Shown here piece after piece: positions 6,702 through 54,591 of a DNA stretch of 64,000 bases. How positions within the stretch are numbered: position 1 is the stretch's first letter; every line of letters begins with the position of its first letter. The position numbers and the translations under genes were made by a program. A model generated the notes under the pieces. It saw nothing but the letters and a program-made list of their open reading frames with translations. It was not told the origin of the DNA and searched no databases. The DNA comes from Oceanihabitans sp. 2_MG-2023 (GTDB lineage Bacteria > Bacteroidota > Bacteroidia > Flavobacteriales > Flavobacteriaceae), in NCBI RefSeq assembly GCF_030547245.1, contig NZ_JAUOQT010000006.1, positions 1 through 64,000 on the forward strand, read 5' to 3'.

Positions 6702-6790
6702 GGGCGTTACCACAAGGGTCGCGTTATCCATTATATCTTTTTTTGCCATATATGGCAGCAAAAAAAGGATGTCATTTCTACCGCTAACGC
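6702..6790 (+). repeat. Structured intergenic palindromic element, copy 1
   Basis: An 89-nt element opens with GGGCGTTAC and closes with GCTAACGC. GCGTTA (6704-6709) pairs with TAACGC (6785-6790), and an inner hairpin CTTTTTTTGC/GCAAAAAAAG surrounds CATATATGGCA. A second element with the same termini lies at 11704-11820. It resembles REP-like intergenic repeats that I recall from other Bacteroidetes genomes, though no search was possible. Confidence 0.55.
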
Positions 6791-6942
6791 AATACAATTA
6801 TAACCACAAAAATTTTACTACAATAGAGCTGCAATGTTAATTCAGTATTAATAAAGTGTTTTGTTTGTCAATTTGTTATTTTTAGAGATACTTTTTTAAG
6901 AAAAATTTATATATTTAGGTGCTAACCATAAAATATATAAAA

Positions 6943-51725: not shown

Positions 51726-53765
51726 TTATTTTTTAATTAAACCGGCCCTTTTTAATAAAGCTTCTGGTTTAGGTTCTTGTCCTCTAAAGCGTTTGTAGAG
51801 CGTCATCGGGTTTTCGGTTCCGCCTTGACTTAGTACGTTGTCTTTAAATTTAGTTGCTACCGTTTTATTGAATATGCCTTCTTCTTTAAAATATTCGAAT
51901 GCGTCTGCATCTAAAACTTCGGCCCACTTGTAGCTGTAATATCCTGAAGAATATCCGCCTTGAAAGATATGTGAAAAAGCAGTGCTCATACAATTTTTAG
52001 CTACATCTGGATATAATTGTGTATCTCCAAATGCTTGTTTTTCATGTGCTTTTACGTTTTCAATTCCCGAGGGATCTACAGCGTGCCAAGACATGTCTAA
52101 TAATCCAAAACTGATTTGACGCAGTGTTTGCATGCCTTCATGAAAAGTTGCAGATTCTTTTATTTTCTCCACCAAATCCATAGGGATTACTTCTCCTGTT
52201 TCATAATGTTTTGCAAAAATTTCAAGAGCTTCTTTTTCGTAACACCAGTTTTCTAAAACTTGGCTAGGTAATTCTACAAAATCCCAAAAAACGTTTGTTC
52301 CCGATAAACTAGGGTAGGTAGTGTTTGCTAACATGCCATGTAAAGCATGGCCAAACTCATGAAAAAGAGTAGTTACTTCATTAAAAGTTAAAAGTGAAGG
52401 TTTACTTTTTGTAGGTTTTGTGAAATTACAAACTATAGATACATGTGGTCTATCGTTAATACCATTTTTAATACTTTGCGATTTGTAGCTTGTCATCCAA
52501 GCGCCATTTCTTTTTCCTTTTCTTGGGAAGAAATCGGCATAGAAAATAGAAACCAATTCTCCATTTTCATCTTTTACTTTATACGTTAAAACATCTTCAT
52601 GATATTTGTCAATAGTATCCATTTCTTCAAATTGTAAACCGAATAATTTGTTAGCAATGATAAAAGAACCTTCAATTACATTTTCTAGTTTGAAGTATGG
52701 TTTTAATTGTTCATCATCTAAATTGAAAAGCTTTTGTTTTAGTTTTTCAGAATAGTATCCAGAATCCCATTTTTGTAAAGTGTCTATGCCATCTAGATCT
52801 TTAGCAAAATTTTCTAGATTGGTATATTCTATTTTGGCCGCAGGTTTCGCTTTTTCTAATAACTCGTTTAAAAAGTTTTTTACTTTTTCTGGTGTTTTTG
52901 CCATACGTTCTTCTAGAACAAAATGCGCATGTGTTTTATAGCCTAAAAGGTTTGCTCTTTTATAGCGAAGCGTTGCAATTTTTAGTACAATATCTTGATT
53001 ATCTAAAGCATCGTTTTTAAAAGCTTTACTTCCTGCTGCTAAGGATAATTCTTTTCGTAATTCTCTATTGTCAGCATAGGTCATAAAAGGAATGTAGCTA
53101 GGGTAGTCTAACGTGATTAGCCATCCTTTTTTTTGTTTAGATTCAGCTAATTGTTTTGCTGCTTCTTTTGCGCCATCTGGTAAACCTGCTAAGTCTTCTT
53201 CTTTTGTAATTAATAATTCGAATTTATTTGTTTCGGCTAAAACATTTTCACCAAATTGTAATTTTAATTTACTTAGTTGCTTGTCTATTTCTCTTAGTTC
53301 TTGTTTTTTGTCCTTAGGAAGATTAGCGCCATTTCGTGAGAAACTTTTATATTTTTTATCTAAAAGGGTTTCTTGTTCTGTAGTTAATTGTAGTTCTGCT
53401 TTATTATCGTAAACCGTTTTTACACGTTGAAACAGTTCTTGGTTAAGCGTAATGTCGTTACCAAATTCGGAAAGCATTGGAGATACCTCTTGTGCTATTT
53501 TTTGAATTTCTTCATTTGTTTCTGCAGCATTAAGATTAAAAAATATGCTGGATATTCTATCTAATTGTTCGCCTGAAAAATCTAAAGCTTCAATAGTGTT
53601 TTCAAAAGTAGGAGCTTTTGTATTATTAACAATAGTATCTATTTCAGCTTTTGCATTTTCTATTCCTAATTTAAATGCCGGAAGGAAATCGGAAGTAGCT
53701 ATTTTAGAAAAAGGAGCAGTTTGAAATTCTGTTGTGAATTTATTTGTAAGTATATTCTGTGACAT
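51726..53765 (-). CDS. M3 family oligopeptidase (Dcp/OpdA-like)
   Basis: A 679-residue zinc metallopeptidase that degrades oligopeptides. The zinc motif HEFGH is at about 469-473 within TLFHEFGHALHGM, and ELPSQVLENW supplies the third ligand glutamate at the usual spacing. The C-terminal GGYSSGYYSYKWAEVLDADAF in parts binds substrate. No signal peptide, so cytoplasmic. The whole length fits dipeptidyl carboxypeptidase and oligopeptidase A; the two cannot be told apart by eye. It leads a four-gene operon on the minus strand. Confidence 0.93.
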   Translation of the reverse strand: MSQNILTNKFTTEFQTAPFSKIATSDFLPAFKLGIENAKAEIDTIVNNTKAPTFENTIEALDFSGEQLDRISSIFFNLNAAETNEEIQKIAQEVSPMLSEFGNDITLNQELFQRVKTVYDNKAELQLTTEQETLLDKKYKSFSRNGANLPKDKKQELREIDKQLSKLKLQFGENVLAETNKFELLITKEEDLAGLPDGAKEAAKQLAESKQKKGWLITLDYPSYIPFMTYADNRELRKELSLAAGSKAFKNDALDNQDIVLKIATLRYKRANLLGYKTHAHFVLEERMAKTPEKVKNFLNELLEKAKPAAKIEYTNLENFAKDLDGIDTLQKWDSGYYSEKLKQKLFNLDDEQLKPYFKLENVIEGSFIIANKLFGLQFEEMDTIDKYHEDVLTYKVKDENGELVSIFYADFFPRKGKRNGAWMTSYKSQSIKNGINDRPHVSIVCNFTKPTKSKPSLLTFNEVTTLFHEFGHALHGMLANTTYPSLSGTNVFWDFVELPSQVLENWCYEKEALEIFAKHYETGEVIPMDLVEKIKESATFHEGMQTLRQISFGLLDMSWHAVDPSGIENVKAHEKQAFGDTQLYPDVAKNCMSTAFSHIFQGGYSSGYYSYKWAEVLDADAFEYFKEEGIFNKTVATKFKDNVLSQGGTENPMTLYKRFRGQEPKPEALLKRAGLIKK

Positions 53766-53799
53766 TTTGTAATTTTATGTTAAAAGCAGACTTTAATAA

Positions 53800-53828
53800 T
53801 TGTGTATAGTAAATAGTTTATATCTTTG
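53800..53828 (+). promoter_or_regulatory. Promoter of candidate small RNA 1 (TTG - 18 bp - TATCTTTG)
   Basis: TTG at 53800-53802 and TATCTTTG at 53821-53828 match the Bacteroidetes consensus with an 18-bp spacer, on the plus strand in a gap flanked only by minus-strand genes. No coding sequence follows it. A diverged equivalent precedes unit 2 (AACATTTG at 54018-54025). Confidence 0.55.
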
Positions 53829-53831
53829 TAA

Positions 53832-53919
53832 AGATTTTTTCATATAGAGCTGGTTACTCGTTGATAAAATTATTGATTAATAGCTAAAAACCTTGATGTA
53901 AATCAAGGTTTTTTTTTTT
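53832..53919 (+). ncRNA. Candidate small RNA, unit 1
   Basis: A plus-strand unit of about 88 nt runs from just after a consensus promoter to a strong terminator. It starts with TTTTTTCAT, then a small hairpin GAG-N7-CTC (from about 53847), a 13-nt segment ATTGATTAATAGC (53872-53884), and the terminator. Every one of these parts recurs in the same order in the second unit about 196 bases downstream. No start codon with a sensible frame is present, so an RNA product is more likely than a peptide. A match to a known Rfam family, such as flavo-1, has not been tested. Confidence 0.45.
53886..53919 (+). terminator. Rho-independent terminator of candidate small RNA 1
   Basis: AAAAACCTTGAT/ATCAAGGTTTTT with loop GTAA, followed by an unbroken T run to 53919. 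No plus-strand gene lies upstream except the proposed small RNA, so the terminator has no other client. Confidence 0.8.
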
Positions 53920-54028
53920 GGTAAAAAACAAAAAAAACACTTAAACGGATTTATGTGCTTTTAATCGAAAAAAATAAATACACTCCTTTTTTTATTAAGA
54001 ATAATGTGAAATAGTTGAACATTTGCAT

Positions 54029-54110
54029 AAGTTTTTTCATGTGAGATATCATCTCATGTTTAAGAAATTGATTAATAGCGTTATAACCTCAAGAGCAATC
54101 TTGAGGTTAT
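54029..54110 (+). ncRNA. Candidate small RNA, unit 2 (diverged tandem copy)
   Basis: This repeats unit 1: TTTTTTCAT (54032-54040), a hairpin TGAGAT-ATC-ATCTCA (about 54042-54056) in the place of GAG-N7-CTC, the identical core ATTGATTAATAGC (54067-54079), and a hairpin ATAACCTCAAG/CTTGAGGTTAT (54083-54110). The hairpin sequences differ while pairing is kept. The promoter-like element is AACATTTG and the T tract after the final hairpin is weaker, so this copy may be poorly expressed. It ends beside the purE stop codon. Confidence 0.35.
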
Positions 54111-54114
54111 TTAG

Positions 54115-54591
54115 TTATAGACTTTTCGCTGATTCAATTACTTTAATTTTTAAACCTTCTTTGTAAGCAATTACTTTATCTAGTACGCTTTTATTAGAAG
54201 TAGCAATAATTTGTGCAGCAAGTATTCCTGCGTTTTTAGCTCCATTTAAAGCGACAGTTGCCACAGGAACTCCTCCAGGCATTTGAAGAATAGACAAGAC
54301 AGAGTCCCACCCATCTATAGAATTACTGCTTTTTACAGGAACTCCAATAACGGGAAGAGGAGATAAAGAAGCAATCATTCCTGGTAAATGTGCAGCGCCA
54401 CCAGCTCCAGCAATAATAACGGCAATGCCATTATTGTGTGCGTTTTTACCATAGTCGAACATTTTTTCTGGTGTTCGGTGTGCAGAAACAATATCCACTT
54501 CTACTTCTAAATCAAAGCCCTTTAAAATATCTATGGCTTCTTGCATTACTGGAAGGTCACTTTTACTTCCCATGATTACTCCTACTTTCAT
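54115..54591 (-). CDS. purE: N5-carboxyaminoimidazole ribonucleotide mutase
   Basis: A 158-residue class I PurE of purine synthesis that converts N5-CAIR to CAIR. The signature GVIMGSKSDLPVMQEA is at 4-19, followed by VDIVSAHRTPEKMFDY with the active-site histidine (about 41), and AGAGGAAHLPGMIAS. It lies 46 bases downstream of purK, its partner in the pathway, on the same strand. A hairpin belonging to candidate small RNA 2 abuts its stop codon. Confidence 0.97.
   Translation of the reverse strand: MKVGVIMGSKSDLPVMQEAIDILKGFDLEVEVDIVSAHRTPEKMFDYGKNAHNNGIAVIIAGAGGAAHLPGMIASLSPLPVIGVPVKSSNSIDGWDSVLSILQMPGGVPVATVALNGAKNAGILAAQIIATSNKSVLDKVIAYKEGLKIKVIESAKSL

Follow-up and report, generated by a model that had tools for sequence, protein, structure and literature searches.

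The gap between purE and a dcp-like M3 peptidase gene in Oceanihabitans sp. 2_MG-2023 holds a tandem pair of units that look like paralogous members of a small RNA (sRNA) family, here called alpha, which occurs in part of the Flavobacteriaceae and is absent from Rfam. It is probable, in our judgement, that the alpha RNAs act in trans, pairing through a core, AUUGAUUAAUAGC, with the 5′ ends of a set of transcripts. The sequences, their conservation and orientation, the placement of promoters and terminators and the co-occurrence are observed; transcription, pairing and the direction and outcome of control are inferred, there being no expression or interaction data. The core is the exact antisense of GCUAUUAAUCARU, and its complementarity to many predicted transcript starts suggests, as far as sequence alone can, a gene-control network.

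The window, meaning the whole 64,000-nucleotide stretch that was analysed, carries the two units on the plus strand (Table 1), where an earlier note had placed them, and every element described in that note is present. The 13-mer ATTGATTAATAGC is identical in the two units and is the sole direct-repeat family of at least 12 nt reported in 53400–54400, at a spacing of 195; TTTTTTCAT is also common to both, 197 apart, and the GAG-N7-CTC elements read GAGCTGGTTACTC and GAGATATCATCTC. The −7-like boxes put the predicted transcription starts at G53833 and A54030, because the sigma-A box of Flavobacterium psychrophilum was located at −12 to −5 by start mapping (PMC9723704). An E. coli-type promoter scan, which is blind to the Bacteroidota box, returned no site at either unit and three elsewhere against 4.2 expected. 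Both final hairpins are terminator-like (two observed versus 0.6, sd 0.8, in shuffles), and the folding z-scores of the units are −3.4 and −5.0. A mechanical open reading frame (54023–54166) overlaps unit 2, its start lying upstream of the predicted +1.

Table 1. Features in and beside the purE–dcp gap. R1 is a covariance model of eight unit 1-type sequences.
Feature	Position	Strand	Basis and remarks
M3 peptidase gene (dcp-like)	51726..53765	-	Pfam; upstream neighbour of the units
Unit 1 −7 box TATCTTTG	53821..53828	+	Sequence; −12..−5 rule (PMC9723704) gives +1 = G53833
Unit 1 small RNA, ~87 nt, both ends predicted	53833..53919	+	R1 109.9 bits (R1 was built from unit 1 and homologues)
Unit 1 5′ stem-loop region	53833..53871	+	Predicted; T-run with pre-core A-rich stretch flanking GAG-N7-CTC
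Unit 1 core ATTGATTAATAGC	53872..53884	+	Sequence, direct-repeat scan
Unit 1 intrinsic terminator	53886..53919	+	Hairpin 53886–53913; terminator and repeat scans
Unit 2 −7 box AACATTTG	54018..54025	+	AATCTTTG or close in congeners; predicted +1 = A54030
Unit 2 small RNA, ~85 nt, both ends predicted	54030..54114	+	R1 46.2 bits (unit 2 absent from R1 building set)
Unit 2 5′ stem-loop	54030..54069	+	Predicted fold
Unit 2 core ATTGATTAATAGC	54067..54079	+	Sequence, direct-repeat scan
Unit 2 terminator-like hairpin, weak U tail TTTAGTTA	54083..54113	+	Hairpin 54083–54110 in terminator scan
purE	54115..54591	-	Pfam AIRC; convergent neighbour; marks a frequent genomic place of the alpha family

Parts of the earlier description need amending. 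The resemblance upstream of the boxes (AATAATTGTG/AATAATGTG) is not conserved in congeners. The GAG-N7-CTC hairpin is present in both units; since predicted pairing joins the T-run to the A-rich bases before the core, the hairpin is really part of one longer predicted 5′ stem-loop. The strong terminator holds for unit 1 and not for unit 2 with its weak U tail; that it had no gene to serve was put too strongly, as the unit 1 hairpin could, on the opposite strand, also terminate purE transcription, and the end set for the candidate region, 54117, extends as far as the stop codon of purE. The inference built on these elements, a duplicated trans-acting sRNA of ~85–90 nt with a single-stranded core as seed, is supported as an inference by the presence of the pair throughout the genus genomes searched, by an anatomy that recurs in 66 RNAs among which no reading frame is shared and by the antisense complement of the core, found genome-wide at predicted transcript 5′ ends. 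The single-stranded core applies to most members and not to the unit 1 of this genome, whose predicted minimum fold pairs part of the core with the GAGCTGGTTA stretch, as does that of unit 1 in the congener G005; with the core unpaired at only 0.20–0.22 in the predicted folds of these two, it is partly hidden.

A lack of conservation in relatives would have refuted the sRNA proposal, and that outcome did not materialize, since core and hairpins are kept. Both units were found in 7/7 genus genomes searched (our own and six congeners), with cores 194–197 nt apart. BLAST with unit 1 (E ≤ 0.01) gave matches in 26 of 60 genomes searched, our own included, many of them short pieces, and the strong matches came from the six congeners and a few other genera. 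Searched across the family as the earlier note had proposed, the covariance model R1 matched 154 of 249 genomes at E ≤ 0.1, the weakest matches probably being plain terminators. At E ≤ 1e-3 it matched near purE at 27 of 80 purE loci (the best 80 of 587 confirmed, selected independently of the RNA), within ~0.3 kb of the purE end and always in convergent orientation. These purE-linked matches come from Hyunsoonleella, Tamlana, Seonamhaeicola, Mangrovimonas, Winogradskyella (4/6), Pontimicrobium, Formosa, Wocania, Flavivirga, Lacinutrix, Mariniflexile, Spongiivirga, Ichthyenterobacterium, Bizionia, Psychroserpens, Algibacter and further genomes, while the loci of Maribacter, Flavobacterium, Aequorivita and Zobellia among the 80 sampled gave no purE-linked R1 match at that threshold. 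PurE itself is 90% identical to its Hyunsoonleella jejuensis counterpart and 89% identical to the one in Tamlana agarivorans. Across 18 aligned units TTGATTAATAGC is invariant, and the bases that precede TTAATAGC differ by clade (TTGA, TTTG, ATTG, ATTC or TTGG).

The anatomy recurs with the sequence. A scan of 118 loci, drawn from the genus, from R1 matches and from the 80 purE loci, yielded 66 distinct RNAs from 56 of them. Each has a sigma-A-like box, TTAATAGC and a terminator, most are predicted to form a 5′ stem-loop and leave the core largely unpaired, and predicted lengths are 71–93 nt apart from one of 132. Members were chosen by box, TTAATAGC, terminator and length; stem and unpaired core were not selected for. 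In the predicted folds of the 66 RNAs the core is unpaired at 0.74, versus 0.48 when the 5′ part is shuffled, and exceeds 0.6 in 55 of them; the expected number of pairs between the 5′ end and the pre-core stretch is 7.8, versus 2.7 after the same shuffling. Only one of the 66 holds a closed frame of at least 15 codons (ATG, GTG or TTG start), so that the criterion of a noncoding RNA is met. Also met, as sequence features with start, end and expression predicted, is that of an own promoter, an intrinsic terminator and a short transcript, as is that of a conserved accessible region complementary to several transcripts, with our own unit 1 as the exception. RNAalifold found no pairs in a mixed MAFFT alignment of both unit types, which misalign there, and the two types were then handled apart for that reason. 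Covariation in the unit 2 stem is slight, with two pairs changed on both sides and 18 of 500 shuffles equally high.

Several further features of these loci were observed. A second RNA, with core AAGATTAATAGC or ACGATTAATAGC, lies near the purE-linked one in L104, L106, L109, L110, L111 and L277, and tandem pairs thus exist outside the genus too. The first hairpin comes in clade-specific types that are kept across genera, GAGYTGGTTACTC in L101–L106 and L109–L111 and GAGTGACTAACTC in L117, L119, L121, L122, L127, L250, L251, L278, L315 and L316, and its loop may be a second contact site. Upstream of unit 1-type promoters in several genera (L036, L100, L119, L251 and other alpha loci) lies an inverted repeat like TTATTATGCGCGCATAATAA, at about −42 to −20 from the predicted start; our own unit 1 has this repeat in a degenerate form at most. 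Where AATAATTGTG stands in our unit 1, several relatives have an inverted repeat like TTATGCRYGCATAA. TTATGCGCGCATAA was matched at ≥10/14 positions by 19 of the 66 alpha members (mean best match 8.8 versus 7.6 shuffled), and the repeat is possibly the operator of an unidentified dimeric regulator. A start-codon seed formed by the T-run with CAT (complement of AUGAAAAAA) was considered and rejected: in the predicted folds the T-run is already paired with the pre-core stretch, and CAT is not conserved throughout the genera.

The case for pairing in trans rests on where the complement of the core occurs. In our own genome (a draft of 3.69 Mb in 30 contigs) 52 sites lie within one mismatch of the 13-mer, versus 10 for a reversed control pattern, and when the strand opposite the core is read, many sites present GCTATTAATCAAT directly after a −7-like box. 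We examined 85 of 96 exact 11-mer sites (own genome 25/31, G001 30/32, G005 30/33), 13 of which lie inside reading frames of at least 80 codons and 72 of which are intergenic. A TAnnTTTR box (at least 5/6) stands at a spacing of exactly 4 at 23 of the 72, versus ~3.6 per spacing in shuffles; this spacing would place the G of GCTATT at about +1, by the published box position (PMC9723704). At spacings of 3–6 the box is present at 35/72 sites; the other strand gives 17/72, and shuffles give 13.3 (never above 23 in 500). A terminator follows the core immediately on the core-bearing (alpha) strand at 17/72 sites, against 0.2 expected, and five of these 17 are purE-linked units. The terminator-linked alpha sites form a set nearly separate from the box-linked ones: the box on the other (beta) strand accompanies 33 of 55 non-alpha sites versus two of 17 alpha sites. 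A short terminator follows on the beta strand at eight of the 72 (0.0 expected), four of the eight with a box. The remaining 22 of the 55 non-alpha intergenic sites lack a promoter box, and the promoter sites counted are consensus matches only. By hand count, 14 of 23 exact intergenic sites of our own genome, two of them the units themselves, have an orthologous site in G001 or G005; no loss rate follows from this, the congener loci having themselves been picked by the motif.

Carriers of the motif fall among short RNAs and mRNA leaders. The array in L004 comprises four similar tandem copies at a spacing of ~143, each made up of a box, the motif and a terminator, and in addition a fifth motif; it is flanked by the genes for a LuxR-type response regulator and a 2-oxoacid dehydrogenase acyltransferase (E2) (L004 700–1600, corresponding to ~481.5–482.4 kb of contig C12 of our own genome). 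The equivalent position in G001 holds five motif sites. Other short candidates of this beta type are L003, L021, L028 and L079, the last upstream of a reading frame that resembles dihydrolipoamide dehydrogenase (named by eye). Among leaders, AUG follows the 13-mer by 10 nt in L009 (UDP-sugar dehydrogenase), 11 nt in L074 (DUF6799), 12 nt in L002 (a 46-aa peptide, exported by appearance only, without signal-peptide prediction) and 2 nt in L073, and L016a/b, L022, L081 and L085 are weaker candidates. A separate observation concerns L005, L007, L071 and L076 of our own genome, beside protein genes or elsewhere intergenic, where terminator-like hairpins follow immediately on the core, which has one mismatch in L071 and in L076; these are possibly 3′ UTR-derived RNAs.

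The predicted duplexes with five partner ends span 13–16 bp at −13.5 to −18.6 kcal/mol. Changes at motif positions 10–12 that are compatible with G-U pairing occur in 30 of 127 non-exact matches in our own genome and G001, versus 13.8 expected, and the opposite set of changes in 9 versus 16.2; the count assumes 33% GC (31.5% in the examined loci), includes tandem copies and orthologues, which are not independent, and ignores context. Every substitution in the 13-mers of the L004 array is G-U-compatible. Over 249 genomes the R1 score correlates with the number of motif sites (Spearman 0.59, versus 0.11 for the control pattern). At least eight sites occur in 42/43 genomes with R1 at E ≤ 1e-4, 16/22 at 1e-4 to 1e-3, 11/33 at 1e-3 to 1e-2, 12/56 at 1e-2 to 0.1 (39/111 for all R1 matches weaker than 1e-4) and 5/95 without a match. 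The counts include the RNA's own core, and shared ancestry, which was not corrected for, may partly explain the co-occurrence.

Genomes in which the purE-linked core has changed, mostly to TTGTTAATAGC, gave no clear switch to the matching GCTATTAACAA in the nine such genomes compared: GCTATTAACAA and GCTATTAATCA number 77 versus 117 sites there and 136 versus 385 in 17 standard-core genomes. The nine include G150, with core TTATTTAATAGC, and G274 and G203, for which the core was inferred where R1 matches and pattern matches overlap. Among sites inspected in three of the nine genomes, 15 of 39 GCTATTAATCA and 14 of 21 GCTATTAACAA lie inside reading frames, and these three genomes carry a further terminator-linked GTTGATTAATAGC. 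We count 12 positions, out of the 13 in GCUAUUAAUCAGU, with which the changed core TTTGTTAATAGC can still pair. Three loci of changed-core genomes (L139, L153 and L165) also contain TTCTTCAC(A/T)TTAGTGTTA(A/G)TTGAAGTTGATTAATAGC followed by a terminator, a conserved RNA candidate or a 3′ end.

These observations can be assembled into a mechanism in which an alpha RNA of ~85–90 nt, with its 5′ stem-loop, mostly unpaired core and terminator, would pair through AUUGAUUAAUAGC with GCUAUUAAUCARU at the extreme 5′ end (+1 to ~+13) of its partners. The partners would be mRNAs whose leaders are short and, as a second kind, short terminator-ended beta RNAs, some of which stand in tandem arrays. In the clearest mRNA examples, with AUG 10–15 nt past the motif, the duplex may hinder initiation or alter decay from the 5′ end; repression of initiation would be the simplest outcome, because the leaders are so short and by analogy with GibS and FopS, which act at start codons (PMC7366714, PMC11697453), and stabilization or decay is also possible. 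Beta RNAs may titrate alpha, or alpha may titrate beta, and which side is the sponge is undecided.

The roles might instead be exchanged, with the beta short RNAs as regulators that use GCUAUUAAUCARU as a 5′-terminal seed and the alpha RNAs and alpha-type gene 3′ ends as their sponges or targets. The beta RNAs do resemble FopS in anatomy, with a single-stranded 5′ seed and a terminator (PMC11697453), some stand in tandem, and the core also lies just before terminators outside the units, as in L005, L007 and L076; yet the motif in the mRNA leaders (L002, L009, L073 and L074) would remain unexplained, and it is the purE-linked alpha RNA that is kept across many genera, the beta loci having been compared within the genus only. 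We regard this exchange as unlikely, if deserving of attention. A reading without any RNA duplex takes GCTATTAATCA for an element that acts as DNA where transcription starts, either as an operator or as initially transcribed sequence, and sees in the alpha cores RNA or protein sites that have nothing to do with it. This reading draws on the fixed position of the motif near +1 and on the absence of a clear compensatory switch where the core has changed. It is improbable in view of alpha cores that precede terminators, have a box on the other strand in only 2/17 cases and are nevertheless exactly antisense to the motif, and in view of the co-occurrence of the RNA family with the motif excess.

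The position of the core directly before terminators, seen both in the units and at a further 12 of the 72 sites, would also suit a protein-binding or terminator-associated RNA element whose complementarity to 5′ ends is incidental, but this accounts neither for an antisense motif at +1 nor for the G-U-compatible variants, and we give it very little weight. Hardly tenable is the notion that the units are merely bidirectional purE terminators with decayed promoters: T follows the unit 1 hairpin on both strands, but core and 5′ stem-loop recur across genera and the sigma-A box recurs at a similar distance. Pairing of alpha cores with transcript 5′ ends remains the reading that we prefer.

If that pairing is real, an sRNA family with a conserved locus is gained, together with a rule for its targets, namely a transcript that begins with GCUAUUAAUCARU (GCUAUUAAUCA as the start at predicted sites). 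The layout would be unusual, as the site to be bound occupies the first dozen nucleotides of its RNA and is also borne by an opposing set of short RNAs. A wider idea, which we advance only tentatively and would not yet rely on, is that part of the Flavobacteriaceae shares an antisense address: an 11–13-nt sequence at +1 would mark a set of mRNAs and short RNAs. It would be read by its complement, which stands single-stranded ahead of the terminators of an sRNA family and of some gene 3′ ends, and between the two sets regulation and titration would run both ways.

No known family was recovered by the Rfam scan that the earlier note had called for: neither unit reached a gathering score, eight partner-site loci yielded two matches at E ≤ 0.5, neither of which reached the gathering score, and the tandem array gave 31 matches at E ≤ 10, all far below it (best E 0.072). 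Flavo-1 (RF01705, threshold 42 bits), common in Flavobacteriaceae (PMC9723704), has no match at 53790–54117; its sole match in the window lies at 6713–6795 on the minus strand (52.3 bits, above gathering score), and its long single hairpin differs in sequence from alpha. BTnc231 (RF04180), a Northern-validated Bacteroides sRNA (PMC7366714), resembles the 5′ end of unit 1 in its TATCTTTG box, 4 nt, T-run and CATAGAG or CATATAGAG, and it has a terminator. It was rejected as a homologue, the resemblance being confined to the 5′ end (26.7 bits, for unit 1, and 15.4 versus a gathering score of 80.4); its model spans 154 positions, and the over-threshold relative inspected has neither the core nor a purE within 1.5 kb on each side. 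Rfp18 of F. psychrophilum is, like alpha, a conserved structured intergenic sRNA of Flavobacteriaceae and, in the literature found, the only flavobacterial trans-acting sRNA with mutant evidence; its pairing region is reported in the third stem-loop (PMC9723704), and the sampled Flavobacterium loci have no purE-linked R1 match at E ≤ 1e-3.

The closest parallels in organization are FopS and GibS of Bacteroides, paralogous multicopy sRNAs that act near mRNA start codons (PMC11697453, PMC7366714); FopS RNAs have canonical sigma-ABfr promoters, and one member is derived from a 3′ UTR (PMC11697453). Alpha shares with them paralogous, multicopy members, a single-stranded seed and a terminator, but the seed is 5′-terminal in FopS and GibS and lies in the 3′ core just before the terminator in alpha. 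The alpha 5′ end is predicted to lie in a stem in most members, so that the FopS/GibS criterion of a 5′-terminal seed is unmet, and the FopS layout is common to the beta RNAs only. FopS is stated to be in Rfam (PMC11697453), and the Rfam scans gave no FopS family match for the units or the beta loci. In the open PMC literature on flavobacterial and Bacteroides sRNAs, titles and the starts of abstracts (supplements excluded) do not name the alpha family, and a search of open PMC papers with the core letters gave no related paper by title. RNA sponges of sRNAs present two small RNAs that are antisense to each other, as alpha and beta are. The difference here would be a shared 11–13-nt antisense code that links multi-member sets with each other and with mRNA 5′ ends. 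Alpha would be a base-pairing sRNA family, set apart by the unusual position of its targets and by a set of small RNAs that opposes it.
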